Below are positions 20,643-64,000 of a stretch of 64,000 bases of DNA, piece by piece. Numbering within the stretch: the stretch's first letter is position 1; each line of letters opens with the position of its first letter. Made by a program: the position numbers and the translations under genes. Source of the stretch: Agarophyton chilense (lineage: Eukaryota > Rhodophyta > Florideophyceae > Gracilariales > Gracilariaceae); contig JARGXX010000010.1 in the NCBI GenBank assembly GCA_030374765.1, forward strand, positions 868,001-932,000, read 5' to 3'. The notes beneath the pieces are model-generated. The model was not told where the DNA came from, did no database searches, and saw only the letters and a program-made list of their open reading frames with translations.

Positions 20643-20952
20643 GGCGCGCTGCGATCGGCGGGGGCGAGACACTTCAGTGCGACCGCATGTCGTCGTTTCG
20701 ACGCGGACGTGGCATCGCCCCCCGCCGTGGCACAACTGCATCGCACTCTGCAGCGTGATCCGAACTATCCCAGACCGCGCCGACACGTGCCGCCTTGTGC
20801 GCCGTTCATTTCCTGTTCATCACCCTTCTCTACAACTTTCACACTCACTTCCTTCCCCTTCGTCCTTCCCCTTCGTCCTTCCCCACCGCTACCACCGTCC
20901 ACTTGCGTGCTGAATATCCTTCCCTTCGCGTTCACACATTCCCCCCATCACC

Positions 20953-36845: not shown

Positions 36846-37649
36846 TCATATTGAGACGCATTTCTGCGCTACAGCAACTTGCAGGATTACACCTGCAGTA
36901 ACGTCGTACGAAACAAGCATATACTGCCGTTTCATCAAATTTCCAACACTTACTTGGTCGTTACGCATGTTGCCCATCTCTGTTTTTACAGTCTGTATAA
37001 TGTCAAGAATTGTCTTTTGGTGCCCTGGGTTTTGCGCATTTAAACGTTTCGTTACATTATTTTTCTGTTCTACGGTGAGTGAGCCCACGATTTCTGGCAC
37101 GGAACGAAACGAGTATATTGCATATGGGAGTGGCAGAGGCTTTTGTATGTTCGTTGCCCGTCTTGGGACATATGAGCTATCTTCGATTGCATTTCCTGGT
37201 CTCCTGTAGTAAGCGCTCGTTCTAAAGAGAAAATTGCGCGCTCAACTATCATCTTTTCTTCAGTCGGTGATAGAATGGGTGTACGTCCTAGATAATGCTT
37301 TGTTGAGTGTAGAAGTTTGTTGAGTGTAGAAGTTTGTTGAGTGTAGAAGTTTGTTGAGTGTAGAAGTTTGTTGAGTGTGGAAGTTCGTTGAGTGTAAAAG
37401 TTTGTTAAGTGACTCATATCCGTCTTTGTGTAGCGCCGTTTTGATTCGATATATTGTTCGCATGCTTACTGAAGTTGCTGCAGCAACATCAGCGACTGTG
37501 TTGTGGGCTTTGATAAGGTCTGCGACTTTTTCGCGTCTCTTTTCAAAGTCTTCACGTCTGTTCTCGTCAGCCTTGAGTTTGGCTGTTTGCCTTCTCATTG
37601 ACAGAGGCATTTTAGTTCCGCGCTCATAGGACGTTTGCGGAATCCTCAA
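36846..37649 (-). pseudogene. Helix-turn-helix transposase-like remnant
   Basis: The N-terminal frame (from 37649) is basic and helical and carries an HTH-like segment (KVADLIKAHNTVADVAAATS, then VSMRTIYRIKTALHKDG), as in Tc1/pogo-type transposases. After the 17-bp minisatellite another frame reads YLGRTPILSPTEEKMIVERA, resembling the 'GR...L...E..I' second HTH of the same proteins. A third frame (37100-36846) is polar and helical. No DDE triad is visible, so the catalytic part is lost or unrecognisable. Confidence 0.4.
37299..37413. repeat. 17-bp minisatellite inside the HTH remnant, about 7 units
   Basis: Unit TTGTTGAGTGTAGAAGT repeats about seven times with few changes. Because 17 is not a multiple of 3, the minus-strand frame cycles through all three phases every 51 bp and encodes a 17-residue repeat. 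No stop occurs in the unit on that strand, so all three minus frames stay open. Confidence 0.9.
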
Positions 37650-47059: not shown

Positions 47060-50000
47060 AACCACCAAAACTGGACCACTTAACCCCCGTTCAAACGGAA
47101 TTTTTCAACTCTCTTAATGATTCTGTCGTCTCTGCCCCGATCCTCTCGTTGCCCAAGCCTGGAAGGCCCTTCACCGTAGATACGGACGCCAGCGACTACC
47201 AGGTGGTGCACTGTTTCAAACTGTACCCAATGGGGAAAGACGCCCCGTAGGGTACTGGTACCGATCGCTAAACGTCCACGAGAAGATTTACTCCGTCTCG
47301 GAGAAGGAATGCCTTGCAGTAGTGTGGGCATTACAAAAGTTGCGCCCCTATCTCATGGGTAATCATTTCACCGTTTTTTCGGACCACGCATCACTTCGAT
47401 GGCTACTCTCCATCTCAGAGCCTTCAGGCCGCTTGATACGTTGGCGTCTCCGTCTAGTGGAATTTGACTTTGACGTGCAGTACCAAAAAGGATCGTGCAA
47501 CACCCAAGCCGATGCTCTCTCCCGCCTGGTCACTACTGGCGAAGCACTACCCGTCAAAGATGATGAAATACCCTGCTTTGCAGTGAATGGAGACGACGCT
47601 ACCATCGAGGACGAGGAAAGAGACACGGAATCTTCAGATTCCGGTTCCGAATTGGACGACTTTCCTCTCTCGGAAGATTCCGAGAAACCATTACCAGGGA
47701 ACTTCGTGCCTATTACTCCAGAGGAGATGATACGGGAGCAATTCGCTGACCCGTTCTGTGCTAAAGTCAGCGCTCAACTCAATGGAGGACGTACTCTCCC
47801 CTTTCAGGTGAATGACGCCGGATACCTTGTACGGACCGTCGGATCGCACCCACAAATCGTGGTACCACATAACCTCCAGTCGAGAGTCTTGCGGTTGTCG
47901 CACTACTCCAAACTGAGTGGCCTCGTCAGGGGACGGAAACTTTACCTCACCCAACTCCTTAACTTCTACTGGCCTGCCATGGCAGTGGATTGCTACGCAA
48001 CGGTGCGGTTTTGTACCGATTGCGCTCGGAACCGTGTCAAGCTCCGCCGTCACGCGAAGAAGTTGAAGCTGTTTCCAGCTCACGCTCCATTGGAGTTTGT
48101 GGCCATCGATATACTCGGTCCCTTCCTTACCACTAAGCGGAATTACAAGTTCTTTCTCGTAATTACGGATCGCTTCTCAAAGCTGGTCCGGACCGTACCG
48201 TTACGGAAGATCTCCGCTATGAGTGTGGCTCAAGCCTTCGTCCTACACTGGGTCTTCGTCTACGGCCCACCGGTCAACCTCCTTTCCGATAACGGGAGAC
48301 AGTTCGCCTCTCGTTTCTTCGAGGATGTGTGTCGCATCTTGGACATTAACAACCTGTTTACGACCACTTACCACCCCCAAACTAATGGTCAGGCCGAACG
48401 GTTCAACCGGACATTACTTGCGACACTCCGTTCATACGTTGCAGACCACCCCAAAGATTGGGACTTGTTCACTGATGCGCTCACCTTTGCGTACAATACG
48501 CAGGTGCACAGGACAACTGGATTAACGCCCTTCGAGTTGGTACTGTCCCGTACCCCATCACCCGTGGCGCTGGAACCACAGCTCACGCCGAATACCTTTC
48601 CGTCACCGACTGCTTACCGCGAAGCGTAGAAAACTTGGCTCAAGAAGCTCGTTCCCGCCGCACGGCGTTCAATAGGCCGAGCCCAGGCCGCTTACAAGCG
48701 TGACTTTGATACCAAAGCCCCTCGCTCGCCGCCACGTCTCGCCCCCGACGGTCATGTATTCATCCGCAAGGAGTATTGGAACCCAGAGAAGGAGAAACGC
48801 CACAAGCTGTCACCCGTTGCCGACGGCCCCTTTCGGGATATTTCGGTGGCTCCCGACACTGTCGTCGTTGACCTCGCTGGTAATCACGAACGCATCTCCC
48901 GCGATCGCATGGTATCGGCTCCTCCGCCATTAACTTCCCAACCTACTGGTTTTACTGCTCCTGTTGAAACGGATTCCTCGACCCCCTTACCCCAGGTCCA
49001 CCCGCGGCCCTACGCGTTACCACACCCATATCGGGGTTTGTCTGACCTTCCGCTACCCGCGGCGCCCAACCCGCAAGGAATCGTGTCGCGCATTCGTCGC
49101 TCCCCCCCGGTCCACCTGACAGACAACAACCCCGGTGCATCGTCTAAGGAGGGAAAGGCGCCCGACAGCCGTCGTAATCCGGTCGATACCGTCGCTGAAA
49201 ACGCCGCACCGTCGCGTGTCATTCTTCGCCCATCAAGGATGCCTGATACCGACGTCCTGCACGACTCGACGCAGCCGCTATCCAAGCTTCAGAACGCAGC
49301 TGCGGATAACGCCACCAACACTCGCCGAGGTGTCACCACACGTGCAACACGGGATGAAAATGCGCTCGACGCACCGCAGCCTGATACAGTACGAGTGGAC
49401 GACGCACCGCCAAGTACCCCGCACAGGGAGGCGGATAAATCCACGGCGCCGACGCCGGACAGCCAGCCATTGGAACGCTCACGTGACTACACAGAACCTC
49501 GCCGTGGGACAGAGAGGTGCGACAATGTGCCACCGCCCCAGCGAAGCTCACCGCCGAAGCGAGCTTCACCACGCCGATTAGCGGAACGACCACCCGGGTT
49601 ACCCGCCGGTGTGGGCCCTCCAACTGGAGTGGGAAACGCCGAAGCAAACCAGGCACTTGGGGAAGATGAACCGCCGAAGTCGGGTCGACATTCCATTCAG
49701 CCGAGGACTGCCTTGCGCGCTACACGGTCCGACCGGAGCGAAGCCGCCCAACGCATGATCACTTCGGTGCCCCCGGGCTCAGGACTGGTACCACCAGGAA
49801 ATAGCTGTAGGACAACGCTTGGAGCGGAGACAACACGAAGATGTTTGGGGTCTTCCTCTCTTGAGAGACACGCCTCAGGCGGGGGAGACGCGTCCCAGCG
49901 GAGCACAGAAACAGAGCCACTCCGGAAAGGCACGACGAAGTCGGGTGTAAGACCGAGTCCATCCGGCGGGATATACCTAGAGTGTTCTGGTGAGCACGGC

Positions 50001-50219
50001 ACAGTCCCGGGTGTGACCAATCCTATGCGGAGCGGTACCACGGCGATTGTCGTAAAAGGAGCGAGGAAACACTCGTATGAGGTCGACGAGCGAGGTGAGT
50101 GGTGCGGCCACTCACGAGAGCCAAAAAGGAGAACAAGAGGAAAACGGGGGCGAAACCCTATACAGGGGCGAGACTACGACAAGTGTCGGCGATTAAATAT
50201 GAACCCACGGTGGTGGTAG
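47060..50219 (+). pseudogene. Gypsy RNase H, integrase and 450-residue C-terminal extension
   Basis: RNase H start (PFTVDTDASDY) is followed by a frameshift, then an intact 435-codon frame: FTVFSDHASLRWLLS and GSCNTQADALSRL (RNase H end), an HHCC-like module (LSHYSKLSG...FCTDCARN), and an integrase core with Asp in FVAIDILGPF, Asp in NLLSDNGRQFAS and Glu in NGQAERFNRTLLATL. A single TAG (48627) separates the integrase tail, RKEYWNPEKEKRHKLSPVAD and GPF (GPY/F module). The frame then stays open a further 450 codons as a Pro/Arg/Ser-rich, disordered extension ending at 50219. No chromodomain is visible. Confidence 0.85.
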
Positions 50220-50739
50220 CACTCTGGTCGACAGAGGGTTGGATGAACTAAGGTGCCACGGGCGCTCACGCAGTATGCGGTGAAGACGCGCCGAAGGCGA
50301 AAAGTTCAGAGCCAGGACTCCCTCCTTGGATCTCCCAAGAGGGTCTTTACTGGGGAGCAGTGCTCAACCTTCTAAGTAGTGTGGCGCGCGGCCCCTGACA
50401 GTGGGTGCGCGCCCGAAAAATAGACACTAAATAGCGATAGCGTAGTCAAATAAATACTTAAAATTACTAAATAATATTAACCATTACGTCTGTGTTCTCG
50501 GAATGCCAGATAAGTGTGCTAGATAGCTAGTTTTGTAAATAAAAAGCCAAAAAATCTAAGAATTTTGCAGATTGCGCTAGTTCGGCACCTGAAAAAAAGA
50601 TTTTGGAAATAAGAACTCCATGCATCTAAGTGTTTTGACCACTTAATGCAGTTGAATCTGCATTTGCAGTTTACTGGTCACTTTTGACCGCTCTAGGTGG
50701 AGATCCATACCAAGGCAGTCGTCAGTACCTTCTACCTCA
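50220..50739. other. 3' flank of the gypsy element, no gene
   Basis: The first 200 bp are GC-rich like the gypsy internal region; from about 50420 composition shifts to AT-rich. I found no LTR end or target duplication here. Confidence 0.5.
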
Positions 50740-51391
50740 TTACTGGCCCTTTTGCTTACTAGGCTCCAGCGTTCCACCGGGAGGGTATTTGAGGTTGAAG
50801 AAGTCCACCACCGCATTCTCAACCTCGTCCACCTCCCCACTGCTCAAGTTCCTCACACCCGGCTGCCCCACCACACACACATTCCCACCCTTCTTCTCCA
50901 CATCCATACCAACCCTCCTCTTCTTCAGCCGACTCTCTCCAACTCCTCCCCCTTTCCATTCCTCTCTCCCCTTCTTCATCCCAGCCGGCTCCCCGCGTCT
51001 CCCTGGCGTCACCGGCGACCCTTTCGCTCTCCCCCTCTCCTCTCCCACCTCCTTCAACACCTTCCGCGCACCCCAAATCTCCCCCACCCCTTCCATGTGC
51101 ACTTCCAACACCTTCACACGCCTCTTCAGTTCCTCATTCGCCCTCCACAGCTTCCCCATCTCCAGCCCCATGGGGATCCGCTCGACATCGCCAACGCCCG
51201 CGAAAGCTATCGACAAGAGCCACCGCAAGCGCAAGCGCACTCACCTTAGTGCGGCCAGTAGTACCCGCAGCCTCCCACACAGCACCCCCCCTCGAAAATC
51301 CTCTCGCCCACCTCCGGCCTTTTATCTCCTTTTTTTGACCCGCTTTTCGCGCGCGCTCGCCCAATTTCAGTACCCTCGTACACCCCTGCAT
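50740..51391 (-). CDS. Coiled-coil basic protein, unknown, one probable 64-nt intron
   Basis: ATG 51391 opens a basic exon (MQGCTRVLKLGERARKAGQK ... GRTK). A strong donor AAG|GTGAGT follows, with intron 51181-51244 and acceptor GATGTCGAG|CGG. The join is phase 0 into RIPMGLEMGKLWRANEELKR, giving about 195 residues. Residues about 52-85 form a heptad coiled coil (EMGKLWRANEELKRRVKVLE). A Gly/Arg/Lys-rich middle and an acidic helix near the end (SGEVDEVENAVVDFFNLKYP) follow. The family is unknown. It is divergent from the pantoate-dehydrogenase-like gene (391 bp apart). Confidence 0.45.
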
Positions 51392-51782
51392 CTACGCTCC
51401 GGATGCCCTTCACCCCACTCATTGCTCACTCACACACTCCCATCCATATTCCTACACCTTCTATCATGTTCAGCGCTCCCTCACTACTCCCAATTTCATA
51501 GCCTTCTCATTTATAATAAATCACACTCATTCGTAACACAAACCGCCGATTACTCATAAGCCCTCTTTCCCGTTATGACTTCCATAACAACACACACTCC
51601 TACACTTTTAACACGATAAACACCATTCAATATCATAAATCTAACCTCCTTCCCAAAAACCCCTAACACCCATTCCTCCACAACCATACTCCTTCTCTAT
51701 TTAATCACATCTCCACACTCGCCACCCCCACCACTTCTTCAATTCCAAGCACACCGCACTCCAAACACCTTTCGCAATCAAC

Positions 51783-52699
51783 ATGACCGACTCTCTCACT
51801 GCCATCCCTTGCACCTCCGACCCAGCCGTTATTGTCGGCAGAGGCCGAATCGGCACTTTGCTTCGCAACAACGGCACCCCACAAGATGCTTTTCTCTCAA
51901 CTCAAGAATTCATCTCCGCGCAATACATCCCCGACGGCCCCATTTTCTTCTGCGGCAGAAATCATTCACTCGAAGACGTCATTCAATTCTGCCCTTCCTC
52001 CCGCAGAGAGGATCTGGTCTTCCTTCAGAACGGAAACATTCTCCCTCTTCTTTCAACCTATGGGCTCCAAAACTGCACCAAAGCCGTTCTCTTCCTCGCC
52101 GTCCCCTCCCTTAACGCACCCCCCAAGGACGGTGTCACCCTCCTCAGTCCCCATGGTCTCACAACTGCCACCGGCAAATGGGCTTCCGTACTCGCCAATC
52201 GCCTCAGTACCGCAGGCCTCACTTGTCATGTCGTCGACCAGCCCTCCTTCTCTAAAGCTTACTACGAAAAACTCGTATGGATATCAGCTTTTAATCTCGT
52301 CGGCTCCTCTTATGGCTTTATCACAATGCACGAAGTTGCAGTACAACACCGCACAGTCGTTTCAACCATAATGAAAGAGCTCCTCACCATCGTCACATCC
52401 GAAACAGGAATCGCCTACAATACAACAGAAACACTCCACACCGCACAGTCGTTTCAACCATAATGAAAGAGCTCCTCACCATCGTCACATCCGAAACAGG
52501 AATCGCCTACAATACAACAGAAACACTCCAAAAACTTCTGGCCCACGGAAAAACACTTACACAGTTCCCCACCTCGTTCTCAGACTTTGAGTTCCGGAAC
52601 GTCTACTTCTACAACGTTTCTAACGCCCAAAAATCCATTGGAAACCGTGACCCCGCCCCTTTCCATACGAACTTCTTGAACGTCCTCCTCAATGGGTAG
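51783..52699 (+). pseudogene. Ketopantoate-reductase (ApbA/PanE)-like gene broken by a tandem duplication
   Basis: The product begins with a Rossmann nucleotide-binding site, PAVIVGRGRIGTLLRNN (GxGxxG). It continues with DLVFLQNGNILPLL and KAVLFLAVPSLNAPP, then YEKLVWISAFNLVGSSYGF, where the Lys-x-x-Trp/Asn-type helix of ketopantoate reductase relatives lies. Such proteins reduce 2-ketoacids with NAD(P)H; this eukaryotic branch has no confirmed substrate. A 92-bp segment occurs twice in tandem (52347-52438, 52439-52530). As 92 is not divisible by 3, the frame ends at 52463 with HTAQSFQP. The expected C-terminus reads on only from the second copy (MKELLTIVTSE ... to 52699). Without one copy the gene would be 274 codons. 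The duplication is real, very recent, or an assembly error. Confidence 0.7.
52347..52530. repeat. 92-bp perfect tandem duplication
   Basis: Both copies run CACCGCACAG...AACACTCCA without a mismatch that I can see. It lies inside the ketopantoate-reductase-like coding sequence and shifts its frame. Confidence 0.95.
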
Positions 52700-53114
52700 T
52701 ACTTCATTTATATACCCCTTTCAATAAAAACAAGTCCTCCTCTCTAAAGCATATGTCCATCTCCTTCGCTGCCTCGATAAAGACTGCGTTCCGCACGACA
52801 CCACGTCAGAATATATGAAACGATATTAAGAATTGCTTCGTACATCACAAATCATCACTACAACCACTCTTCATAAATCTTCCAACTTTGCAATTAAGTC
52901 TGTACCCAATAACCGCTCCTACAGCCTATCAAAGGTTTTCATTCATAACAATTATTCATACTCCGCGACAGAGATACGGCAACAACCTAACAACTACTTT
53001 GATCACTACATATATATATCCACCGATGACCACCCTACTTCATTGCGCTCAACATACTGTATCCAGTCCCTCACAAATACCTTTCTACACAACACTCTCC
53101 TCTCCTTCTCAAGC

Positions 53115-53459
53115 ATGCAGCGCTACGAAGCACGTCTTTCCCTACCCCCTGGTTCTTCTGTCCAATGCTCAGCAGCTGTGGATATTCTTCCACAACGAAC
53201 GGTTATCACCATCGACGAAGTCCTTCAAATCAAACTTCCAACCACCCAGAATGTGGTCGAAGTCAGAGGGTTCCAGAATCATATCACCAACGAGCTCATG
53301 GACGAGATTCGTGACATTTGTACGACCACCAGGAGGCTCCCCACTCGCAACTCCCTACAGCAGCAAGATACTCTGAAACAACTGTTCAAAGAGCGGTATC
53401 ATATCGTTACCTATGTGCAGCGTACAAGGAAGACTAGCAAACCGGAACGCCTTTACTAA
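53115..53459 (+). CDS. Unknown 114-residue protein
   Basis: First ATG (MQRYEARLSLPPGSSVQCSA) after TATATATAT at about 53009. The frame is also open upstream to 52833. The product has a beta-rich N-terminal half (VITIDEVLQIKLPTTQNVVEV) and a helical basic C-terminal half (NELMDEIRDICTTTRRL ... DTLKQLFKERYHIVTYVQR). No family recognised. It might be the first exon of the membrane-protein gene that follows, whose frame has no starting Met. Confidence 0.45.
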   Translation: MQRYEARLSLPPGSSVQCSAAVDILPQRTVITIDEVLQIKLPTTQNVVEVRGFQNHITNELMDEIRDICTTTRRLPTRNSLQQQDTLKQLFKERYHIVTYVQRTRKTSKPERLY

Positions 53460-53471
53460 GATGTTCAGTTA

Positions 53472-54300
53472 GCAAACACTCTTCACATCGACCTTAACGT
53501 TCACAATCACACTAACTACACTCTTCGGAGTTATAGACCCAGCTCTGCAATATACGCTTCCATTCAGATTCAACTCTCTCCTTCGGTTCATTCTCATAAC
53601 GCTATTGAGGTGTTCTATCCAAAGCCTGCTACACATTCTCATAATCGAAGGAGGCGTACAATGTATAAACGCGTTATACGGGTCTCTACAAACTACGCCG
53701 TTCAATCCAAACCAGCGATATACCTGGAAGAAACGAGCCTTTCTGGAATTCGGGGCTCTACTCCTTACTCTACTCATCCCCCTCAACGCCATACTTTTCC
53801 TCGTTCACCGCTTCATTCCAGTCAGCGGTACCCTTTCATCAGACGTGAAGACAAATTGTATCGCCTTCTCCACAGGAGGGGCCGCAGTTGGCGCTTTGGC
53901 ATATCTTCTCCAGCTTGTTTCTATATCCTTCTTTCCAGAGTCCTATCTTAACACAAAGTTCACAATGACCCCGGAACCACGGAGAACCTCTTTTATGAAC
54001 CTCGTGCTTGGCGCCCTCTCCCACTCTTTTCAACAGGCTTTATTCATATCCAGTCCGGATGTAACCTTCCGACTACTCGGTATGAGGCTGTCGGCATGCA
54101 CTTTCGCTGCACTCTCTTCAACCGCCTTCTCCACCTCTCGCATTGAGGGACCTGGTGTTCCTATACTGCTTGGTAACACAGTGGATGTCGTAATCTTGAT
54201 ATCTTCGACAGTTGTCATTCACTATGAAAAAGTGAAAGCAAGTGCTACTCTCACGCGTTTCAATCCAGTTGTTCAGGAGTTTCTACTGAAAGACGACTGA
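53472..54300 (+). CDS. Multi-pass membrane protein, 5' end probably spliced
   Basis: The frame is open from a TAG at 53469-53471 and contains no Met for about 165 codons, so the start lies in an upstream exon. TACTAAGATGTTCAGTTAG just before it looks like branch point plus acceptor. About 275 residues with four or five hydrophobic helices: TLTTLFGVIDPAL, LLRFILITLLRCSIQSLLHI, FLEFGALLLTLLIPLNAILF, IAFSTGGAAVGALAYLLQLV and VDVVILISSTVVIHY. The C-terminus is soluble (RFNPVVQEFLLKDD). Family unknown. It converges with the ParB-dioxygenase gene, with ends 81 bp apart. Confidence 0.5.
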
Positions 54301-54381
54301 TCACTATTACAAGAAAAGGGGACTACTCCACATATTACCTCAAATTGTACTCTTTATTGTTCAATAGGTAACAGATACTAT

Positions 54382-57300
54382 CTAGTCGTCGTCGTCATCC
54401 ATTATCATACCGCCGTCTTCATAGTCTCCATCTGTGTTAGCCGAGTTGAGACCCATCCCAGGTTCATCATCCTCTTCTTCATACTCCTCTTCCCCACTTT
54501 CAACAACTTCCATTTTATAATCTTCATCCAACTCCTCATCCTCATCTACCTGGACGTCTTCATCATCACCCTTGTTGGAATCATCCTCTTCGAACTTAGG
54601 CCGAAATGCTGGTTGCCTATGCACTGCGTCCGGTAGCTTGTACCCATCCGGTACCAAGTACATGTGATACCTCATGCAAACTTCCTTAACCAATGCATCC
54701 TCGTATCCAGCTCCAGCATGAAACACATCTCCTCTTCCAATAAAAATGGAGTACGGCGGAATCCTGAACTTCCTCACTACCATCGTCCGAGACAGCCGCT
54801 TCAAGCTCCTGTCGTCGGGCACGTACATGTTATGTGACCTCTCACAAACCCAAAGCATAAACGAACTCGCTCCCGACGCCATCATGAAGAACCCTGGAAC
54901 CTCTCCGACGTTCTTCTCGGCATCGGTCAGTCCTCGAAAGTCCGTATGTAACACCTGCCTTGGACAGCCCTCCGCCGTACACAGCACTCGCCCCCCTGTT
55001 TCAGGGGCATACATCCTCTTCTTCCCCGACCTGTTGTTGCACAACCGAAGAGCGGCCGCAATCTGTCCAAACCTCGCATCCAACAATGCCCTTTTCCTCA
55101 CCATTAAAACGTTGTTCTCGTCCCCCTCCACAGAATCCACAATCCCCACCTTCGTCGTAATGTACCGCCCAACTCCCTTCATTCTATCTCCAGCGTCTCT
55201 CTCCTCACCAGCGTTGATTATAGGGTCCCATTTCTTTCTATTCCCTTCAATCGTCAAGTCCGGCTGGTTCAAGAAATCCGTCTGGAAGAACTCTAGCAAA
55301 GTCCCAGTCACATCCCCATCGAAGTTTACCCCCCTCTTCTTCGCCTCATCCGCCATCCCCTCGTCCGTGGCAAACTCTTCCAGCACACAAAATCCTTTCT
55401 CCATCAGCTCACTTCTCTTAGTCGCGAAGTACTCGCGGGCCAAGTCATCCCTCTCCATTGCTGCCATCCATATCGCCTGCTCTTCATTCACAGGGTGGTC
55501 CTTCGTCGGTAGAATCACCCCAAGAACCGGTTCTTTCGTGGAACCCAGTTCCTTGTGCCTGTTATGAGCAGCACGCCAATAAACCGCATGGTGCACACTT
55601 TTCAAGTCTTCTACCCTCAAGCACTCCGCCCTGTGCTTGTTCCGTAGGTAAATCATCTGCATCCAGAGGTGCTGATGCTTCACTCCATTTTCACCCGCCG
55701 GCCACTCGCTCGGAAGTGCATTCACCAAGTACACCCACGACATACCCGACCCCCCCGCATACGGTCCCGCCCTCTTCAGCCCCTTCGGAACACCCTCCGG
55801 ATTATTGTCTTCGAAGCCACGCATTTGCACACCTTCCTCCTCTTCGTCCCCTACAAATGCACCCTGCCCCCCGTCATCATCCAGTTCATCCTCACTCGAT
55901 GAGAAAACATTGAGTACATGTTCCTTCAAGAAGCGCTTCAGCTCTTTCCTGCTCATCTTCTTGAACACATCCACCACGTCAGCCGGTATTTGAGCCGCAG
56001 ATGTGCCCACCGTCTTTCTCCTCTTCCTCTTCCGCTTTAAAGGCTGTTCATACTCGCGTTCATCATCACTAATGACCACAGCCTTTCTCTTCCCCTTTCT
56101 CTGTCTAGGTTCCATCACCCTCTCACCCGCAGCATCCAGCCCGCGCTCAGTACCTTTTCTAGTTCGTGTGATGCGTCTGGGAACCACGGTTTCCTGGTGG
56201 GGTACAGACTCCCCAGCACTAGACGAAGGAACATTCACAGAAGGTGGCACCTCCACCACATCCTTCTCCGCACTTGGGGACGCCAGACTCACTTTCAGAC
56301 CGCCTTCAATCCGCCTTTGTGCGATTTTCATCCTCTTCGACACCAACCCCGGCCACAACCGCTTCGGACCACTGAGCTCCATCTTCGCCGTTTGCATGCA
56401 AAGGTACTCCCTTAAAGACACCTCGTTCTTTCCCATCACAATTGTGCTGTCTAGAACCTTCCCCGCCGTCAGACCCTTCTCCTTTCCCGCCCTTTCGCAT
56501 AGTTGGAACATTCCTATGGCGCATTGGAAGAACTGCTTTCGCGTCTCCTGGAAACGTCCCATATTCCCCGTAGAACCCATCCTCACCCTCACATGTAGCT
56601 GCAAACAACGGATTGCGAAACGGAATATTTCGTCTTCGAGTCCTAACAACAAGTCACTCGACACATGCGCAAGCGTTAGCACTGGACCCTCCTTGCATAC
56701 GTTCTCAAAGAACTCCAGGAGACCTTCGCTCCTGACGAATTTCAACCCAAGAGTCGCATAGCGATTCAAGTGGCGCAAGCTGTAGATTCCTATAGCTTCG
56801 CTCGTCTTCAGCGCCCCAGCTATCCGTGTCGGAGTAAGGTCAGCCAACTTGGTTCTCTTATCGTCAATCAAGTTGCAAATGAAGGACACTGTCGAATGAA
56901 CCTTGTCGGCGAAACTCATCTTCAACACATTTGAACTCATTTCATTGAGTACATTACCAAGACCGAGCACTTCGTTCAGCGATAAAGGCTTCCGGTCCTT
57001 TCGTCTCCAAAGAACGACATCAAGAGACCGCACAATTTCCAACCACTTTCTCCCTTCAGAGGGATCATTCTTCAGATCTCGCAGAACCAAGACGCGGTGA
57101 TGACCGTCAATGAGTATGACAGGCACCACTACCCTCCCATTGTGAACAATTTCACTGAAATCTAATTCCATTCCCCCGACGATGGCAACAGCAATCGACC
57201 CTGCCGACGCAAGCCAGCCAAACGTTTTGCACTTTGCCATCGTCGCCGCCTTGTGTTCCGCATTCACACTTCTGACAGTCTTCTCGGGGATTTGTATGTC

Positions 57301-58068
57301 ATCTATGTCCACAATCAAGCGGCACTGGTCATAGTCTGAAGCAGAGATCTTCTTTTCCACGAGAGTCCTATCCACTTCCTGCGAAGGAACGGCATCGCCG
57401 TCATCGAACAACTCCAACTCGGGACCGGTGTGCGAATCCCCGCGTACATTCACCGCTGACCCCACCTCCACAACATCTTCATCAGAATCATCCACTATCG
57501 TCACCCTCTTTTTCGGCTTGACGGGTTGCTTCATGGCCGGCGGCACTGTTGTTGGCTGTGCCCTCTTCCCCCTCAAAGGCGTAGCAGACTCCTTCGAGGG
57601 GGTCGCGCTTTTGGGAGTCTCCGGCCGAGGAGGCCCTGGAGTCAGCACAGAGGAGACGCGTGTCATCATCGAGGTATCCCATGCGTATATACCTGCCGAC
57701 ACCATATCCTTCAGCAACTCCGGCGGCTCCTCTGCTCCCTTGAAGGAGTACGGATACTTGGAGTTGATCCCCTCCTTAATTTCAGTCCTCCAGATGGCCA
57801 CCAAGTCCTCTCCCGGCTTCGCAGACTCGCGCAACGAATGGCCATGCATCGCTCTGCAAAGCGCCTTCCCGGCCGCTCCACTGCCCCCAACACCTCTCAA
57901 CTCCGCAGTGCCAACCATAGTACCCTTCTTCTTCCCTGTCCCATCCGCCAGGAACAACGCCACCCTATCCCCACCAGCCAGATTGTTTCCCGATGTAGCT
58001 TTTCGCGGAGTGGCGCGTGGAGTACCCCGCGGAGTACCCCTCGCTTTCGCTTTGCCTCGAGTCATCAT
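54382..58068 (-). CDS. ParB/Srx-like domain plus 2-oxoglutarate/Fe(II) dioxygenase-like fusion protein
   Basis: An intact 1228-residue intronless frame. Residues 1-30 are basic with TPRGTPR repeats. Residues about 248-440 look like a ParB/Sulfiredoxin-type domain with helical follow-on: DDIQIPEKTVRSVNAEHK, then VVVPVILIDGHHRVLVLRDL with the ParB 'DGHHR' box at 321-325. 630-690 holds a nuclear-localisation-like KRKRKRRK. The C-terminal domain (about 885-1140) has the double-stranded beta-helix dioxygenase pattern: MEKGFCVLEEF at 889-899, QVLHTDF (H1041-x-D1043), DVFHAGAGYED (H1117) and CMRYHMYLV (R1133 for 2-oxoglutarate). The last 70 residues are almost entirely Asp/Glu. Function is inferred: sequence-specific DNA binding plus oxidation of a base or protein. 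It is divergent from the methyltransferase-SET gene across a palindrome array. Confidence 0.8.
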   Translation of the reverse strand: MMTRGKAKARGTPRGTPRATPRKATSGNNLAGGDRVALFLADGTGKKKGTMVGTAELRGVGGSGAAGKALCRAMHGHSLRESAKPGEDLVAIWRTEIKEGINSKYPYSFKGAEEPPELLKDMVSAGIYAWDTSMMTRVSSVLTPGPPRPETPKSATPSKESATPLRGKRAQPTTVPPAMKQPVKPKKRVTIVDDSDEDVVEVGSAVNVRGDSHTGPELELFDDGDAVPSQEVDRTLVEKKISASDYDQCRLIVDIDDIQIPEKTVRSVNAEHKAATMAKCKTFGWLASAGSIAVAIVGGMELDFSEIVHNGRVVVPVILIDGHHRVLVLRDLKNDPSEGRKWLEIVRSLDVVLWRRKDRKPLSLNEVLGLGNVLNEMSSNVLKMSFADKVHSTVSFICNLIDDKRTKLADLTPTRIAGALKTSEAIGIYSLRHLNRYATLGLKFVRSEGLLEFFENVCKEGPVLTLAHVSSDLLLGLEDEIFRFAIRCLQLHVRVRMGSTGNMGRFQETRKQFFQCAIGMFQLCERAGKEKGLTAGKVLDSTIVMGKNEVSLREYLCMQTAKMELSGPKRLWPGLVSKRMKIAQRRIEGGLKVSLASPSAEKDVVEVPPSVNVPSSSAGESVPHQETVVPRRITRTRKGTERGLDAAGERVMEPRQRKGKRKAVVISDDEREYEQPLKRKRKRRKTVGTSAAQIPADVVDVFKKMSRKELKRFLKEHVLNVFSSSEDELDDDGGQGAFVGDEEEEGVQMRGFEDNNPEGVPKGLKRAGPYAGGSGMSWVYLVNALPSEWPAGENGVKHQHLWMQMIYLRNKHRAECLRVEDLKSVHHAVYWRAAHNRHKELGSTKEPVLGVILPTKDHPVNEEQAIWMAAMERDDLAREYFATKRSELMEKGFCVLEEFATDEGMADEAKKRGVNFDGDVTGTLLEFFQTDFLNQPDLTIEGNRKKWDPIINAGEERDAGDRMKGVGRYITTKVGIVDSVEGDENNVLMVRKRALLDARFGQIAAALRLCNNRSGKKRMYAPETGGRVLCTAEGCPRQVLHTDFRGLTDAEKNVGEVPGFFMMASGASSFMLWVCERSHNMYVPDDRSLKRLSRTMVVRKFRIPPYSIFIGRGDVFHAGAGYEDALVKEVCMRYHMYLVPDGYKLPDAVHRQPAFRPKFEEDDSNKGDDEDVQVDEDEELDEDYKMEVVESGEEEYEEEDDEPGMGLNSANTDGDYEDGGMIMDDDDD

Positions 58069-58213
58069 TTGAATCGGATCGTAGTCGGTCGAGGTTGCAA
58101 ATGGTCGCAGAGCGCTTTGAGCCTTTTATGGTATACAGACTAAGACGTATTAGATCGAGCTCCTTTGGTGGCGACTATCCGGAACACTCCCGAGAGCAGT
58201 TCGTTGCAATCAG

Positions 58214-58281
58214 CCTGAACTACGTCCGCTTAGTTTCAATCTACGCCTGTTTCAACCTGAGCTACGTCCGCTTAGTTTCAA
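58214..58281. repeat. 26-bp direct repeat upstream of the ParB-dioxygenase gene
   Basis: CCTGAACTACGTCCGCTTAG at 58214 recurs as CCTGAGCTACGTCCGCTTAG at 58256, each followed by TTTCAA. The spacing is 42 bp. It lies 150-210 bp upstream of the start codon and could be a regulatory site pair. Confidence 0.75.
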
Positions 58282-58374
58282 ACTCAAGAAACTCCTTGTC
58301 TCTTTCCATCACAAACACGCCTATTGGCTTGGTAGGCGATACAAGAAAATAAAATTAAAAAATTAAAAATATCC

Positions 58375-59147
58375 TGACGGCCGACAGAGGTGCGCTCCGA
58401 CTTCATCGGGGGTCCCGATGAAGTCCCCGCGCACCTCTGTCGGCCGACATAATACATATAATTTTGTAATTTTTGGAACGCTCAGGTGTACACGGTGCAC
58501 TCTGTCGTCCGACAGAGGTGCGCTCCAACTTCATCGGGGGTCCCGATGAAGTCCCCGCGCACCTCTGTCGGCCGACATAATACATATAATTTTGTAATTT
58601 TTGGAACGCTCAGGTGAACGCTCAGAGGTGTACACGATGAAGTGCACCTCTGTCGGCCGACAGTCGACCAACATCTCAGAAACGCATCATGCGTGATGTT
58701 ATGGCGTATTTGTCGGCCGACAGGGGTGCCCTGCGACTTCATCGGTCCACCGATGAAGTCGCAGCACACCCCTGTCGGCCGACAATTCACCAACATGTTG
58801 TAGGGACACCATTCGGGCCATTTGTGGGCCGCCAGGAGTGTGCTGCGACTTCATCGGTGGACCGATGAAGTCGCAGGGCACCCCTGTCGGCCGACAAATA
58901 CGCCATAACATCACGCATGATGCGTTTCTGAGATGTTGGTCGACTGTCGGCCGACAGAGGTGCGCTCCGACTTCATCGGGGGTCCCGATGAAGTCCCCGC
59001 GCACCTCTGTCGGCCGACAGAGTGCACCGTGTACACCTGAGCGTTCCAAAAATTACAAAATTATATGTATTATGTCGGCCGACAGAGGTGCGCGGGGACT
59101 TCATCGGGACCCCCGATGAAGTCGGAGCGCACCTCTGACGGCCGACA
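58375..59147. repeat. Nested palindrome array of about 75-bp hairpin modules between divergent genes
   Basis: Six complete modules (58375-58449, 58503-58577, 58711-58784, 58823-58896, 58945-59019, 59073-59147) and one half-module (about 58625-58662). Each is a hairpin: TGTCGGCCGACA at both ends, itself a 12-bp palindrome, then an arm to CGACTTCATCGG, a short loop and the complementary arm. Nine 12-mers are perfect and four differ slightly. Inner modules (58711, 58823) have CAGGGG/CCCCTG where outer ones have CAGAGG/CCTCTG, so arm changes are compensated. Spacers also pair: 58663-58710 with 58897-58944, and 58578-58626 with 59020-59072. The whole array is thus a large inverted repeat centred near 58804, with an extra module on the left. 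It occupies the shared upstream region of the two long genes. Confidence 0.95.
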
Positions 59148-59320
59148 GAATGCAACCAGGATAGCTGCGAAGTCGTTCCGCAACAACCGTTCTTCCGTGC
59201 GCGCTCCTCAACCGTACTCACAATCTTTCCGTACCCACCCGCACCCACCCGCACCCGCTGCTCTCTTTCACTCAGGCTCTCGTGACGACCGCCCGTGAGG
59301 TTGTTTGAACATGTACATAA

Positions 59321-62300
59321 ATGGCTCCAGAACCCACGAGAACTTCTTCATCGCCTGCGGCAGACACCTTCGAAATGGGTAAACTGTTTGGTACGGGGGA
59401 TGAAGTTATCAGGGCGTGTCTGGATTTGCGTGATCGTTACGCATTAACGAGGCGGGAGGAAGATGAGCCGCGAAAAGTGGGGCACACTGCATTCATCGAT
59501 TTCACAATTGCCAATCGCCACATCCTACCGGAGACCGCGAAGTTTTTTTATACTCTCCTAGGTCCCGACCACACCAATTACACAGAAGATGAGCTCCGAG
59601 TTGTAGGAATGAGGGGCTCGAACTGTCAGAATTATTTCTCGGCGAGGTTGCTGGATATAAGGGATGGGGACCCAGATAGGCGCGTGAGGGACTTTTGGAA
59701 CGCGTACGAGGCGGTGGAGTTCAAGGGCATCCCGAAGAATGTCACTTTGACAGAGTTCTTCAAAGGTCTGGATACAACCCGAAAGAAGGCGAGCAAAAGC
59801 CGGGCTCCATTCGCGACCGACTTCCCGACAATGTTCCAGAGGTTGCTGTTCCTCATTTGTATTCAGTCGGTCTCTATGGAGAAGAGAAGAGTCTCCCGTA
59901 AGCGAAGAAAGCGGGACAGAACCTACGATACGCCATTTTCGAAGGTGGCGATTTATGACAAACCAGTAGCTCAGCGTGTGGGCTTTGGTGTGCAGCTCGT
60001 CAATAACGCGTGGGACAGCTTCGCCCAGTATTTGGGATTCCCTGGCGTGGAATTCATGGTTTTGCCCTTTATCCATCTACGATATTCTGATATGCAGTTC
60101 CAGGCAATCGGAAACAGAAGGGATGGGTTCTCTCACAAGGACATGGCCCAACGACTCCTTCCTGGTAGAAACCGTACTTTATTGGAGGAGGATGTCGTCC
60201 CATGGGCGTGGAACCTGCCGGAGTACGTTGACACTCCACTTCGTATGTTGGCCAAAGAGTTTCTCGCTGACCTGCACAAAGTGGTGGTGAATGAGCAGCT
60301 TTACTCTATATCAGCTCCGGAAAGATGGGACGTTCTAAAACCGTTTACATACACTTTGCCTAGAGTGTTTGCGGAGAGATTCGACTGCTTCTCGAACTCT
60401 CTTATCTCTACCATCTCGGAATACATATCGCCACTAAAGCTGCGAGGGAGTGTGGAGGTGGAAGTGGTGGCTGCGACAAAGGCGGAACCTACTATGGTTA
60501 TGGAAGAAGACGAGATAGAAGTTGTACCCCCTGAGAAAGATTCGGAGGCTCCGGCGGTGGAGGGTGGAGAGGGAGTGGAGGGTGGGACCGGGAATGAGGA
60601 AGAGAACATGGGTGTTGGTCAGCATTCTTCCACAGCTGGACCAAGGTCGGTCGAATCTGAGTCGGTGGATATTCTGCCGCCTCACGACCTTACCTCTCTG
60701 GATGATATAATGTCTCTCCAAAAGTGCGAGTCGGAGATGGATAAGCACTGTCGAATGTACAATTGTACTTTCGAGAACCTGGTGGAGATTGACGAGACAT
60801 TGCGCAGCAATGGGGTCTCTCCGATAGGGAAAGTGCAGTTGGTTCTCACGGACCCGCCGTATAATATACGTGCGAAGAAGAACAGGAAAAACAGCTGGTA
60901 CGACGTTCTTAACCGGCAAGACATGGTGAAGACGGCGAAGCTCATCTCTAAACTTCTGCGTCCGGGAGGGCATTTCGTTATATTCTGCGCGATTGAGCAG
61001 GTGAACGAATGGAAAGAAGTGTTGGGTCGAATTGGTGCAAAGGATGAGAATGGACAGAAGAGCAGGTCGTTTGTCGTGGACAAGGTCCAGCTGCACTTCA
61101 TTCGCTCTCAAGGCAATCCGATGCGTAATCCCGGACGTAGTTCGTGCTCCCTGTTTCCCGGAACAGAGTACGCCATTCATGGAGTTCGCAGCGGGTTGTC
61201 CTACGCCGAACAACATGGCATGGTGAACTATGAGAACTTCAGCTATGTACCATCGCGATATCCGGGTTACCATAGCGTGATTGACCAAGTGCCTCCCATG
61301 TCGAATGGTGAAACACTTCTATGGAGAAGGAAGAATGCCAAAGGAGCAGTTACGTATCAGAAAGTGCGGGCGGAACAGAAGTCACGCGCTTTGCTGAAGG
61401 AGCTCATCAGCAGGTTTTCTCAGCCGGGAGACATAGTGGTGGACCTCTTCGCCGGAACATTTTCAACGGCCATGGCATGCATGGAACTGGAAAAGCACCG
61501 TCAGTTTCTAGGGTGTGAGCCAGATCCGCAGTGCTTTGCTCATGCGAAGCACGCCGCTACAGTGAAATTTGCGTCATGCATGCGGAACAACGAGACGGAC
61601 ATTCATATAACGCAAGATGTTCGGAACGCTGTGACTCGAGTGACATGCTTGTTTCCGGACGTCGTCATAAAGCGTTCGAAGTCCTGGAAAACACCTACCG
61701 GATTTCCCGAGCATCAGATGTTTCCACCCCATATCGTGGATTTTCTCTCCTCCATGTGGCAGGATAAGAATATATCGGAGATTGGGCGACGGCAGGCGCT
61801 GTATGAGTGGCCAAGAAGTTTTCAAGGAAAGATGTCACTGTTGGATTGGAATGCTATTCTGGCAGTGGAGGCGACAGTATGTGGTTGTCGGATTGCAAAG
61901 TCGACGATAAGGCACCCGAATGCTGGAGTTGGTGTGTACACAACACGCCGGGTGATACAAGGTGAGACTGTTTGTTACTTTTACGGGACTTTGGTGTACC
62001 ATAATCTTTCAAAGCGGAAGGAAGTTCATAAGGCATACGGAGGGGGGCTATTGAAAGCGACTGCTGATCGTTTTCGGCAGTACGCGATGGAGATAAGCGT
62101 CCGAGGGGAAGTGTTTCACAAGCTACCAGGAAGAATTAGTGGGGTGTCTCTTATTCCGGTGTGGATTGTCCCTGCTCCATTTTGCTTGGGGGGAACAATT
62201 AACGACCCCAAGTATGTGGAAGGGGATAGGGACAGGGATGCGGTTGAAGACGGGTTAATGAGACGCCGAACTGCAAATGTTCGGGTCATCAGAACTCCGG

Positions 62301-62452
62301 GGACGGGGCGGACCCCATTTCAGTTGAGAGACTATAGATTGCTTTCTGTGCAAGCAATTCGAGATATAGAAATAGGAGAGGAGCTGTTCGCGGATTATGG
62401 GACAGAGTATATCTGGAGTATGAATAACACGCCAGTCATAGTAATCGATTAA
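59321..62452 (+). CDS. DNA amino-methyltransferase fused to a SET-like domain
   Basis: An intact 1043-residue intronless frame. Residues 1-380 are an unrecognised helical region; 385-460 an acidic linker. Residues about 480-745 form an N6-adenine/N4-cytosine DNA methyltransferase of the beta order: catalytic motif IV LVLTDPPYN at 508-515, LLRPGGHFVIF at 545-555, a central target-recognition stretch, then SAM-binding motif I DIVVDLFAGTFSTAMACMEL at 704-723 and FLGCEPD. DPPY favours adenine. Residues about 855-1035 resemble a SET lysine methyltransferase: NAGVGVYTTRRVIQGETV, a 'NHS'-equivalent region changed to LGGTINDPKY, NVRVIRTPG and the catalytic-pocket IGEELFADYGTEY. The altered NHS box may mean changed activity. 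The ATG at 59321 lies 173 bp after the palindrome array. Confidence 0.85.
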   Translation: MAPEPTRTSSSPAADTFEMGKLFGTGDEVIRACLDLRDRYALTRREEDEPRKVGHTAFIDFTIANRHILPETAKFFYTLLGPDHTNYTEDELRVVGMRGSNCQNYFSARLLDIRDGDPDRRVRDFWNAYEAVEFKGIPKNVTLTEFFKGLDTTRKKASKSRAPFATDFPTMFQRLLFLICIQSVSMEKRRVSRKRRKRDRTYDTPFSKVAIYDKPVAQRVGFGVQLVNNAWDSFAQYLGFPGVEFMVLPFIHLRYSDMQFQAIGNRRDGFSHKDMAQRLLPGRNRTLLEEDVVPWAWNLPEYVDTPLRMLAKEFLADLHKVVVNEQLYSISAPERWDVLKPFTYTLPRVFAERFDCFSNSLISTISEYISPLKLRGSVEVEVVAATKAEPTMVMEEDEIEVVPPEKDSEAPAVEGGEGVEGGTGNEEENMGVGQHSSTAGPRSVESESVDILPPHDLTSLDDIMSLQKCESEMDKHCRMYNCTFENLVEIDETLRSNGVSPIGKVQLVLTDPPYNIRAKKNRKNSWYDVLNRQDMVKTAKLISKLLRPGGHFVIFCAIEQVNEWKEVLGRIGAKDENGQKSRSFVVDKVQLHFIRSQGNPMRNPGRSSCSLFPGTEYAIHGVRSGLSYAEQHGMVNYENFSYVPSRYPGYHSVIDQVPPMSNGETLLWRRKNAKGAVTYQKVRAEQKSRALLKELISRFSQPGDIVVDLFAGTFSTAMACMELEKHRQFLGCEPDPQCFAHAKHAATVKFASCMRNNETDIHITQDVRNAVTRVTCLFPDVVIKRSKSWKTPTGFPEHQMFPPHIVDFLSSMWQDKNISEIGRRQALYEWPRSFQGKMSLLDWNAILAVEATVCGCRIAKSTIRHPNAGVGVYTTRRVIQGETVCYFYGTLVYHNLSKRKEVHKAYGGGLLKATADRFRQYAMEISVRGEVFHKLPGRISGVSLIPVWIVPAPFCLGGTINDPKYVEGDRDRDAVEDGLMRRRTANVRVIRTPGTGRTPFQLRDYRLLSVQAIRDIEIGEELFADYGTEYIWSMNNTPVIVID

Positions 62453-62776
62453 AAGTGCATCGCTTTTGTTACTTTACTTCATTGTAGTGTACCAGATATT
62501 GTGGGCTTTTACTATGTTTGTCGCTACATATAACGTCAAAGCGTGACGTAGTACATATGCTAAAGGAAAGTCATGTACACCGAAGGAGAATACTTTCCCA
62601 ATATCTGGTGCGTTCGAGCGCATATTTAAAATATCTGAAAAGTTTGGGGGTTTTCTGAGAACACGAAAAGGGTGGAGGTATATTTTTGGAAGCAGAATGT
62701 TTCGAAGCTTCTCTCCCATCCATCGCATTGCAACGCGTGGAAGACCATACCACGATCGCTCTCTCTCTCTTCAACC
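62453..62776. other. Intergenic, possible promoter of the terminal gene
   Basis: About 320 bp; contains ATATTTAAAATATC at about 62623-62636, an AT-rich palindromic motif that could serve as TATA for the next gene. No gene seen. Confidence 0.5.
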
Positions 62777-64000
62777 ATGGCTCCGAAGCGCAAATCGAGA
62801 AGCGAGAACACTAGCGGGCGCGGTACAAAATCACGGCGGCATGGAGGGGATGCGGAGGGCGGAAGGGACAAGGGGCGTAGGCTCCAGGGCGCGAGTGGAG
62901 AGAAGGGAGGCGTGCGCCTGAGAGGTAGATCAAGGCAAGATGGTGGGGAAGGAGAGGCGAGTGGGGGCAAAGGAAAGGCTGTTCGCGCAAAGGAGACGGT
63001 GACGGAGGAGAGTGCGGAGCAAATCACGTCGCGTACGGAGCAAATCACGTCGCCTACGGGAGAGATGGTGCGGAGCGGCGATGGAAAACGGGATGGCGTG
63101 CGAAGCAACCGCACGCGTGTACCTAGAAGTGGATTGCGGGGGAGGGCGAGCAGAGCTCCAGGGAGGACAAGGAGAGGGGATGCATCCGAGCGGACTCTAA
63201 GTGCTGTACTCACGTCTTCAGCTGATGTGGAGCCGGTAAATCCATGCTCTGCACCTGAAGGAGGTGAAGAGATTCCGAATGAGAGGACGAAGGGGCGTAA
63301 GGAGGGAGAGAGAATGATCGGAGAACGTGGATCCCGCCTCAGAGGCGTTGAAGAAGCAGGGGCATCGTTTACGGGTATGAGGGAAGAGGACGGTGATGAT
63401 GAGATACAGAAAGGGAGAATAGAGAGTAGCCGTGGTGGGGAGGGTAGAATAGGTGGACCCAGTAGTGGTCTAATCGCGGGCGCAAGAGTCGTTCGAGAGA
63501 GAACAGAAGGAGAGAGTGTTGGAGTTACCGCGGGGGAACAGGCGGAAAGATGGGAGGGGGCGAACTTGGATTACGTGGAAGAAAGGAGAGAGCGTGCAAG
63601 GGAAAGAATGGGGAGTGTTCGAGTTACAGGAAGAAGAGCGATAGACGAAAGGGAAAGCAGAGAAGTGCATGTGAGTGAGGGGGGAGAAGGGGGTTTGCTG
63701 GAGGGAGAACACGTGGTTCAGGGGAGGAAGGCGATGGAAGAGCAGCAGTTCTTTCTCATCAGGGAGAAGATGTCGAGCGTTTGCCACCGAGGAGAGGGGT
63801 GGGTTTGGGAGTTGAAGGGTTTGAGGTGAACGCAAGGCGAAGGACGCCGGAAGGTATGCGAGTAAGGAGAAACATTGTATTCACAAGGAATAATGATAAC
63901 GGGGAGAATGCGAATTTAAATGTCGTGGAGAACGCCGTCCGTATAGTGGAAGATGAAGCAAATGATGATGACATAGGTTTGTTGCCGCGGTCGATGCTAA
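62777..64000 (+). CDS. Low-complexity basic/acidic protein with a probable intron, runs off the window
   Basis: ATG at 62777 in ACCATGG opens MAPKRKSRSENTSGRGTKSR, a nuclear-localisation-like basic N-terminus, followed by a Gly/Arg/Glu-rich disordered region. The unspliced frame ends at 63829. A donor CAT|GTGAGTGAGG at 63671 and an acceptor TTCTTTCTCATCAG|GGAGAAG at 63762 would remove 92 nt in phase 0. That leads to a frame open to the window end (GEDVERLPPRRGVGLGVEGF ... DDDIGLLPRS). I therefore call exons 62777-63670 and 63763 onward. No domain recognised yet; the informative part may lie outside. Same strand as and 324 bp after the methyltransferase-SET gene. Confidence 0.5.

Follow-up and report, generated by a model that had tools for sequence, protein, structure and literature searches.

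A Plavaka-type transposon of the red alga Agarophyton chilense with a DNA methyltransferase-SET gene, a ParB-like/dioxygenase-like gene and a palindrome array

Two long open reading frames diverge from an array of palindromes in the window, the 64,000-nucleotide stretch of Agarophyton chilense DNA (contig JARGXX010000010.1, positions 868,001 to 932,000) that was analysed here; the genome of this red alga also encodes phycobilisome linkers. Both frames had been reported in a preliminary description of the same letters and both are present, one of 1228 amino acids on the minus strand (54382..58068) and one of 1043 amino acids on the plus strand (59321..62452). The palindrome array placed between them is likewise real, and consists of nested inverted repeats (58371..59151) with 13 copies of the 12-mer TGTCGGCCGACA at up to two mismatches. 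The DPPY DNA methyltransferase and SET domains read in the plus-strand frame both score above their Pfam cut-offs.

The plus-strand gene encodes a DNA amino-methyltransferase-SET fusion. Its N6_N4_Mtase domain (PF01555, E 3.4e-18, 66.9 bits against a cut-off of 26.7) spans residues 505-742 (60833..61546, plus strand) and is matched in 20 of 20 aligned proteins, the alignment drawing on 19 of 21 methyltransferase-SET homologues. DPPY (511-514) stands ahead of DLFAGT (708-713), the motif order of a beta-class amino-DNA-methyltransferase. DPPY favours N6-methyladenine (6mA), and by this motif the product would probably be 6mA rather than 4mC. The SET domain (PF00856, 23.4 bits against a cut-off of 22.4) covers residues 869-1027 (61925..62401, plus strand), with a match at E<=1 in 16 of the 20 aligned proteins. 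SET lysine methyltransferases have a canonical NHxxxPN-type motif and a C-terminal catalytic tyrosine; here TINDPK occupies position 959 in place of NHS.., and the tyrosine of DYG is kept in 15 of the 20 proteins. The long N-terminal region (residues 1-480) has no Pfam match. Relatives of the methyltransferase family occur in other public sequence data at 24-49% identity, so other genomes are likely to have the system as well. A prokaryotic origin of the whole protein was considered and rejected: three prokaryote-genome loci match the methyltransferase part only, at 22-24% identity. No C5 DNA methyltransferase was detected in the host genome.

The minus-strand gene encodes a ParB-like/2OG-Fe(II)-dioxygenase-like protein, which forms a family of seven with six homologues (alignment A2). 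These were recovered with residues 770-1140 as the query; a whole-length search, which low-complexity words may have swamped, returned nothing. Within the ParB-like region (residues 245-345; 57034..57336, minus strand), D321, G322, H324 and R325 of the sequence DGHHR (321-325) are invariant in all seven members, DGxHR being taken as a conserved ParB-type loop. The dioxygenase-like region (residues 885-1145; 54634..55416, minus strand) carries H1041-x-D1043 in seven of seven members, and H1117 and R1133 in all six sequences reaching that far. Profile comparisons excluded the phage template Ph67, the sole and weak tblastn match of the query (E 7), along with the closely related L068. They gave the ParB region a score of 24.5 against four ParB-like proteins of phages (10.2 for the reversed control), with some bias as these templates are related to Ph67. 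The same region scored 14.6 against F SopB/P1 ParB, within the controls (13.4-19.6), and the dioxygenase region scored 20.7 against PhyH, hardly more than its best control (19.6). The putative ParB and 2OG-dioxygenase domains of the preliminary description are supported by the invariant motifs in divergent homologues and by the weak profile-profile scores; no library detects either fold, which counts against the reading favoured below. No family match was found for the protein in Pfam, NCBIfam, PHROGs or PDB sequences, its six homologues match no Pfam family, and the joint family profile has no PDB match. PF02195 (ParB-N) was detected in neither the protein, the family nor the genome, and is present in 11 of 14 control genomes; PF12851 (Tet_JBP) is matched by 0 of the 7 family members and nowhere in the genome at E<=1, in a search where no control genome exceeded the cut-off.

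The palindrome array stands out against both the window and the genome. With up to two mismatches allowed, the window contains 14 matches to TGTCGGCCGACA, against 2.38 expected, and 13 of these fall inside the array; the motif occurs nowhere else in this copy of the element. Genome-wide, the palindrome is found 487 times against 5 for the control. Folded as a single strand, the array reaches -441.6 kcal/mol, against -131 +/- 6 for 20 shuffles. Among 85 half-units, chosen for carrying both motifs, conservation is 82-100% at the positions of the 12-mer and drops to 62-66% at five others. The 12-mer is not alone in being conserved: the second palindrome arm (half-unit positions 25-35) reaches 92-100%, a point against the reading favoured below.

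The genes and the array are part of a larger unit than first seen, an 18.8-kb cut-and-paste transposon of the Plavaka type (CACTA/CMCT-related) that has one of its copies here. This identity follows from common ends, target duplications, an empty site and the transposase. The element of 18,810 bp starts at 50487, occupies the window to its end (50487..64000) and runs 5,296 bp beyond it, to position 937296 of the contig (C10). Its left end is common to six of six other aligned copies and its right end to five of six, and terminal repeats face each other at C10:918487 and C10:937296. The left terminal inverted repeat, CGTCTGTGTTCTCGGAATGC, is 20 bp long (50487..50506, plus strand), and the TA just before it (50485-50486) is the 2-bp target duplication. 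Matching 2-bp duplications (TA six times, TG, TT and AA) flank all nine copies read at both ends, two of which have the same flanks, leaving eight independent sites. At a paralogous site that lacks the element, TA occurs just once. The Plavaka transposase (PF18759) scores 81 bits against a cut-off of 26.3 (E 1.2e-22), and 123 matches to this domain occur in the genome. A viral origin was rejected, as neither protein has a real relative among viral contigs and the element is marked as a transposon by its ends, target duplications and transposase; the sole viral match in alignments of both proteins is a methyltransferase stretch of about 100 residues at 28% identity.

Several smaller frames fill the remainder of the element. 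A 143-aa frame without Pfam match (50740..51171, minus strand) is also found in copy C117. It is followed by a frame weakly similar to the C-terminal domain of ketopantoate reductase (51783..52463, plus strand; ApbA_C E 0.24, below the cut-off), which is shortened here by a 92-bp tandem duplication (52346-52529) and exists in C117 as an intact version of 274 amino acids. Three other plus-strand frames have no Pfam match above the cut-off: one of 114 aa (53115..53459), one of 231 aa with a TTG start (53605..54300), and one of 350 aa that appears by eye to be of low complexity (62777..63829). The 5' part of a 524-aa frame (63856..64000, plus strand) reaches the window end, and 475 of its 524 residues were scanned with no Pfam match above the cut-off.

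The element is abundant in the genome and has been recently active. At least 44 copies of the methyltransferase-SET gene are 96-100% identical (44 of 232 candidates scored), the closest of those scored differing by 1 nt in 3.1 kb. The ParB-dioxygenase gene has at least 39 matches (38 of 338 candidates scored), and the exact terminal repeat occurs 178 times. A divergent ParB-dioxygenase match lies 533-1801 bp from the methyltransferase-SET gene in at least 25 of the 44 copies, a lower bound drawn from copies of one element that are not independent, and 38 of the 44 have a Plavaka match downstream, at a distance of 2.5-5.1 kb and on the other strand. The self-contained epigenetic module of the preliminary description thus holds as anatomy, with genes and array travelling together, while the unit proves to be a transposon rather than a host locus. 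Homologues of the two genes appear to be linked elsewhere too: P0002 and P0023 are both on four contigs of another source, the longest of 20,528 bases.

Compact derivatives of 3.0-5.9 kb retain the array in five of six cases; among the matches listed, none of the six has a methyltransferase-SET or ParB-dioxygenase match, and the methyltransferase domain is present in 0 of 6. One of them, C31, retains both termini with a TA duplication and contains 17 12-mers; its array begins some 0.7 kb in from the left terminus. Clusters of array and Plavaka matches were drawn from part of the array copies (40 of 101 candidates scored, excluding opposite-strand and overlapping ones) together with roughly 100 of the 123 Plavaka matches; 11 had a Plavaka match and neither gene, and 9 of the 11 stand after two with a methyltransferase domain nearby are set aside. 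The retention of the array in compact elements without detected methyltransferase or ParB-dioxygenase genes suggests that it probably acts in cis. Against this count the absence of the exact 12-mer from the compact element at C1:443153 and from a 15.3-kb element at C2:1231604, and the lack of an array, among the matches listed, in all five terminal-repeat pairs of 8-12.4 kb (pairing drew on 100 of the 178 ends).

We tentatively favour, with slightly less than even confidence, a transposon with a self-targeted writer and eraser system, probably of 6mA, docked on its own array. The ParB-like/2OG-dioxygenase protein would bind the palindromes between the two divergent genes and protect the array region from a repressive base mark, in all likelihood N6-methyladenine, while the methyltransferase-SET protein would methylate the element's DNA and its histones. 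The array would then be where this self-targeted switch docks, either to maintain expression of the element or to restrain its copy number. Short deletion derivatives that retain the array might use both proteins in trans. Substitutions among copies look near-neutral, with 7 synonymous and 18 non-synonymous changes in seven copies of the methyltransferase-SET gene and 32 and 80 in six copies of the ParB-dioxygenase gene (neutral ratio about 3.4), and this counts against the self-targeted system. With more reserve, we suggest that the components might form a private code other than 5-methylcytosine, in which an amino-methyltransferase-histone methyltransferase writes and a ParB-dioxygenase reads and erases in a sequence-specific manner at a dedicated palindrome array, in a host without detectable C5 methyltransferase.

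The array could instead serve transposition, with the transposase or an accessory protein binding the repeats, much as with the TnpA motifs of Spm/CACTA elements, or using the hairpins to assemble the ends, and the epigenetic genes working separately. The transposase of the present element is akin to that of the CACTA group in the available part of PMC12730594, and compact elements keep ends and array without the other genes, with the array close to the left end in C31. In the full element, however, the array lies in the interior between divergent gene starts, with some 8 kb to the nearer terminus, and its 12-mer, at up to two mismatches, is found nowhere else in this copy; we consider this reading unlikely. 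Somewhat less probable again is that the methyltransferase-SET protein acts genome-wide on host chromatin, suppressing host silencing, and that the array is a mere repeat-rich promoter. The gene starts on either side of the array would fit, and transposon-borne SET genes are described from other lineages in the same part of PMC12730594, but a mere promoter would not explain why five of six compact elements, all without a detected copy of either gene, keep the array. The preliminary description had also proposed that the palindromes mark the locus for maintenance or segregation. A ParB-like motif beside a cluster of sites, as annotated for P1 parS, recalls such ParB/parS-like partition, which is nonetheless highly improbable in an integrated, multicopy element with a transposase, where the ORFs scanned with Pfam revealed no ParA-like family and the match to F SopB/P1 ParB does not rise above controls.

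As far as the available part of PMC12730594 goes, transposons that bear an epigenetic enzyme have just one, either a TET/JBP dioxygenase or a SET gene. The present element unites a writer and a histone-modifier domain with a probable eraser and a defined array, in near-identical copies and in a genome without a detected C5 methyltransferase. Since mark, site and protein are each specified by the prediction, one can test directly whether a transposon is able to run its own non-5mC epigenetic system.

The closest parallels come from several lineages. Fungal Plavaka, EnSpm and KDZ transposons with TET/JBP genes are described in the available part of Kojima 2025 (PMC12730594), where a transposon-related dioxygenase acts on 6mA in duplex DNA. 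The fungal Plavaka elements share with the present one the type of transposase, 2-bp target duplications and an element-encoded dioxygenase, here a putative one identified by motif only. In contrast to them, the dioxygenase-like region here has no Tet_JBP match and is joined to a ParB-like region, the element adds an amino-methyltransferase-SET fusion and a palindrome array, and the host is a red alga. Its termini, CGTCT..TGACG, also differ from the TGT..ACA or CATCA..TGATG that the same part of the paper gives for the PlavakaA and PlavakaB subgroups. The SET domains encoded by oomycete HarbingerS and MuDR transposons are a further likeness, with no DNA methyltransferase fusion, ParB-like protein or array mentioned in that part of PMC12730594. 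The catalytic domain resembles those of the phage and bacterial beta-class adenine methyltransferases CcrM, DpnA and PHROG 67, from which the present protein differs by its SET fusion and by residues 1-480, a long N-terminal stretch with no match in Pfam. In the VANDAL transposons of Arabidopsis, VANC proteins bind motif arrays and counteract silencing; as far as the available part of PMC5735166 goes, these share a sequence-specific factor of their own (here predicted) and non-coding arrays of short motifs whose repeat number varies between copies. VANC is not described there as a methyltransferase or dioxygenase, and the motif here is palindromic, 12 bp long and set among nested inverted repeats. 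Finally, the N4CMT and SETDB1 of bdelloid rotifers likewise couple a bacterial-type beta-class amino-methyltransferase with the methylation of histones in eukaryotes that lack canonical C5 methyltransferases, going by the available part of PMC8885841; there a host gene is directed against transposons, whereas here methyltransferase and SET are united in one protein encoded by the transposon itself.

The two divergent genes and the palindromes between them lie within a Plavaka-type transposon of 18,810 bp. Its boundaries were drawn by aligning six other copies and their flanks to the window copy: the left end, at window position 50487, is common to all six, and the right end, at 69296 in window numbering (beyond the end of the window), to five, the exception being the copy at C12:362793, where the match ceases at 69033. 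CGTCWGTGTTCTCGGAATGC stands at both ends, in opposite orientations; genome-wide the 20-base end has 178 exact matches, against 0 for a control pattern. A 2-bp target duplication matches in all nine copies read at both ends (TA in six, and TG, TT and AA), two of which, on C2 and at C12:654623, have common flanks and represent one duplicated site; C12:362793 and C68:3359595 yielded a single end each. An empty site on contig C105 consists of an uninterrupted copy of the host repeat with a single TA at the junction, and aligns with the window flanks over 807 bp across the junction at 92% identity. The insertion site is a repeat adjoining Gypsy-type RNase H and integrase sequence (window 47322-50486; homologous stretch L018:7507-8312). 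A Plavaka transposase of 1087 aa (PF18759; 81 bits against a cut-off of 26.3) is encoded in the right part of the transposon. Genome-wide there are 123 Plavaka transposase matches, and 38 of 44 copies of the plus-strand gene have one 2.5-5.1 kb downstream on the opposite strand, where chance would provide about 0.005 per copy.

The genome holding the window (C10:868001-932000) comprises 79.8 Mb in 135 contigs; the phycobilisome linker domain PF00427 has 13 matches in it, several on large contigs including that of the window, C10. On this evidence a red alga is the most probable host, a glaucophyte being less likely. At least 44 copies of the plus-strand frame are present, with 96-100% protein identity, 13 of the 44 being free of in-frame stops, and the minus-strand frame has at least 39 matches, eight of them full length and without a stop. 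Compared with the window copy, the one on C117 has a single nucleotide difference in the 3,132-nt plus-strand frame and a divergence of 0.08% in the final 5.3 kb, indicating that transposition or duplication was recent. A perfect 92-bp tandem duplication (52346-52529) shortens a weakly ketopantoate-reductase-like cargo ORF in the window copy; its site is single copy in the six other aligned copies, and the C117 counterpart of the ORF is undisturbed at 274 aa. Substitutions among young copies are close to the neutral expectation and give no sign of present-day selection. It is the motifs conserved among divergent homologues that show constraint.

The preliminary description had placed two long frames around a palindrome array, and all three are present in the sequence. 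In the plus-strand protein (59321-62452, 1043 aa), the proposed DNA methyltransferase is confirmed by an N6_N4 domain match with motifs in beta-class order (DPPY at 511, DLFAGT at 708), and the SET domain likewise by a domain match. When 19 of its 21 database homologues (24-49% identity to the query) were aligned with it, all 20 proteins had the methyltransferase match and 16 a SET match at E<=1. The ParB and dioxygenase domains ascribed to the minus-strand protein (54382-58068, 1228 aa) are backed by motifs invariant in homologues, but no library searched returned a match above cut-off. Six homologues share 37-50% identity over residues 770-1140; DGxHR (321-325) and HxD (1041, 1043) are invariant throughout this family of seven, and H1117 and R1133 are kept in all six sequences that reach that far. 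These residues look like ParB-type and 2OG-Fe(II)-dioxygenase-type sites, respectively. Profile-profile comparison lends weak support to the ParB identity, the region scoring 24.5 against four phage ParB-like proteins (reversed control 10.2) and 14.6 against F SopB/P1 ParB (controls 13.4-19.6); the dioxygenase region scored 20.7 against PhyH, not clear of the best control at 19.6. With profile support weak or absent, both folds are putative. The methyltransferase homologue P0002 and the ParB-dioxygenase homologue P0023 are each on four contigs, the longest being 20,528 bases for both; judged by these matching figures, rather than by the contigs themselves, the two genes are apparently linked in a further sequence source.

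The sequence at 58371-59151, the array, forms a nested palindrome. Exact matches to the 12-mer within it, TGTCGGCCGACA, number 487 in the genome, against five for the reversed control. A set of 85 half-units, chosen for having both motifs, was drawn from the window, one compact copy and six further full copies. Conservation in this set is 82-100% across the 12-mer and 92-100% in the arm of the second palindrome (positions 25-35), and drops to 62-66% at five other positions (14, 22-24 and 36); both palindromes are therefore candidate binding sites. In 25 copies, matches to the two genes, some of them partial, lie 533 to 1801 bp apart, so the array is unstable in length.

Arrays also occur apart from the genes. 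Among 41 array clusters, built from part of the genome matches, 11 lay near a Plavaka match and near neither gene; a later domain search found a methyltransferase domain by two of these, so that nine stand. Of these nine, the one on C31 belongs to a compact element of 4.6 kb that has both ends and a TA duplication, keeps the left 685 bp and regions 66103-68229 and 69074-69295 (window numbering) and carries 17 12-mers (up to two mismatches), both genes being missing. The 100 listed ends, of 178, form 30 facing pairs. Six of these pairs span 3.0-5.9 kb: an array is present in five of the six, and a methyltransferase domain match in none. The exact 12-mer is absent from the compact C1:443153 and the 15.3-kb C2:1231604, and five end pairs of 8-12.4 kb had no array among the matches listed. 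Retention of the array in derivatives is frequent, not universal, and derivatives with ends and array but without the genes point to an array acting in cis.

We propose that the plus-strand protein would put on DNA and histone methylation, that the minus-strand protein would bind the array palindromes and oxidise the methyl mark there, and that the two would jointly determine the expression state of both the element and its derivatives. The mark is more likely to be 6mA than 5mC, given the DPPY motif of the methyltransferase and the lack of a detected C5 methyltransferase in the host: PF00145 had no match in the genome, the same search being positive in 10 of 14 control genomes. A C5 methyltransferase gene in split exons could escape such detection, and among red algae 5mC is reported in Gracilariopsis chorda and a DNMT3-like gene in Cyanidioschyzon merolae (PMC8566409, PMC9861306). 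No Tet_JBP match was detected in the genome. In fungi, a dioxygenase related to transposons reportedly acts on duplex DNA, oxidising 6mA (PMC12730594), which makes an element-borne eraser of the 6mA mark plausible.

A separate group of matches to the N6_N4 methyltransferase domain is concentrated near contig ends, many in frames of 1130 or 1141 aa with near-identical scores (for example C10:1410 and 13447, C116:8318, C31:747788 and C117:1578594). Of 33 chosen from 116, 20 are no more than 60 kb from a known contig end; the plus strand carries 14 of the 17 that are close to contig starts, and the minus strand all three that are close to known far ends, so that transcription is mostly inward. 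The group possibly represents a subtelomeric family of genes or elements. Elsewhere in the window, an ATP synthase gamma subunit frame (18803-20191; ATP-synt E 2.4e-78; best PDB matches mostly mitochondrial) has roughly 180 additional residues ahead of the domain, and the start assigned to it mechanically may be placed too far upstream. Beside it, at 20001-22000, G+C content peaks sharply at 67% with short C-rich tandem repeats, and a 17-bp unit is repeated in tandem at 37299-37411 (6.6 copies, 93% matches).

Searches of titles and abstracts in the open-licence literature found no transposon uniting an amino-methyltransferase, SET, ParB and dioxygenase, and no element of such make-up in red algae. 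Fungal Plavaka elements that carry TET are reported, as are SET genes in other transposons (PMC12730594); Amoebidium is described as having giant repeats flanked by Plavaka (PMC11244446), and a green alga as having EnSpm-Plavaka elements (PMC12633428). The motif arrays to which VANC proteins bind differ from copy to copy (PMC5735166), and in bdelloids N4CMT and SETDB1 couple an amino-methyltransferase to histone methylation, directed against transposons (PMC8885841).
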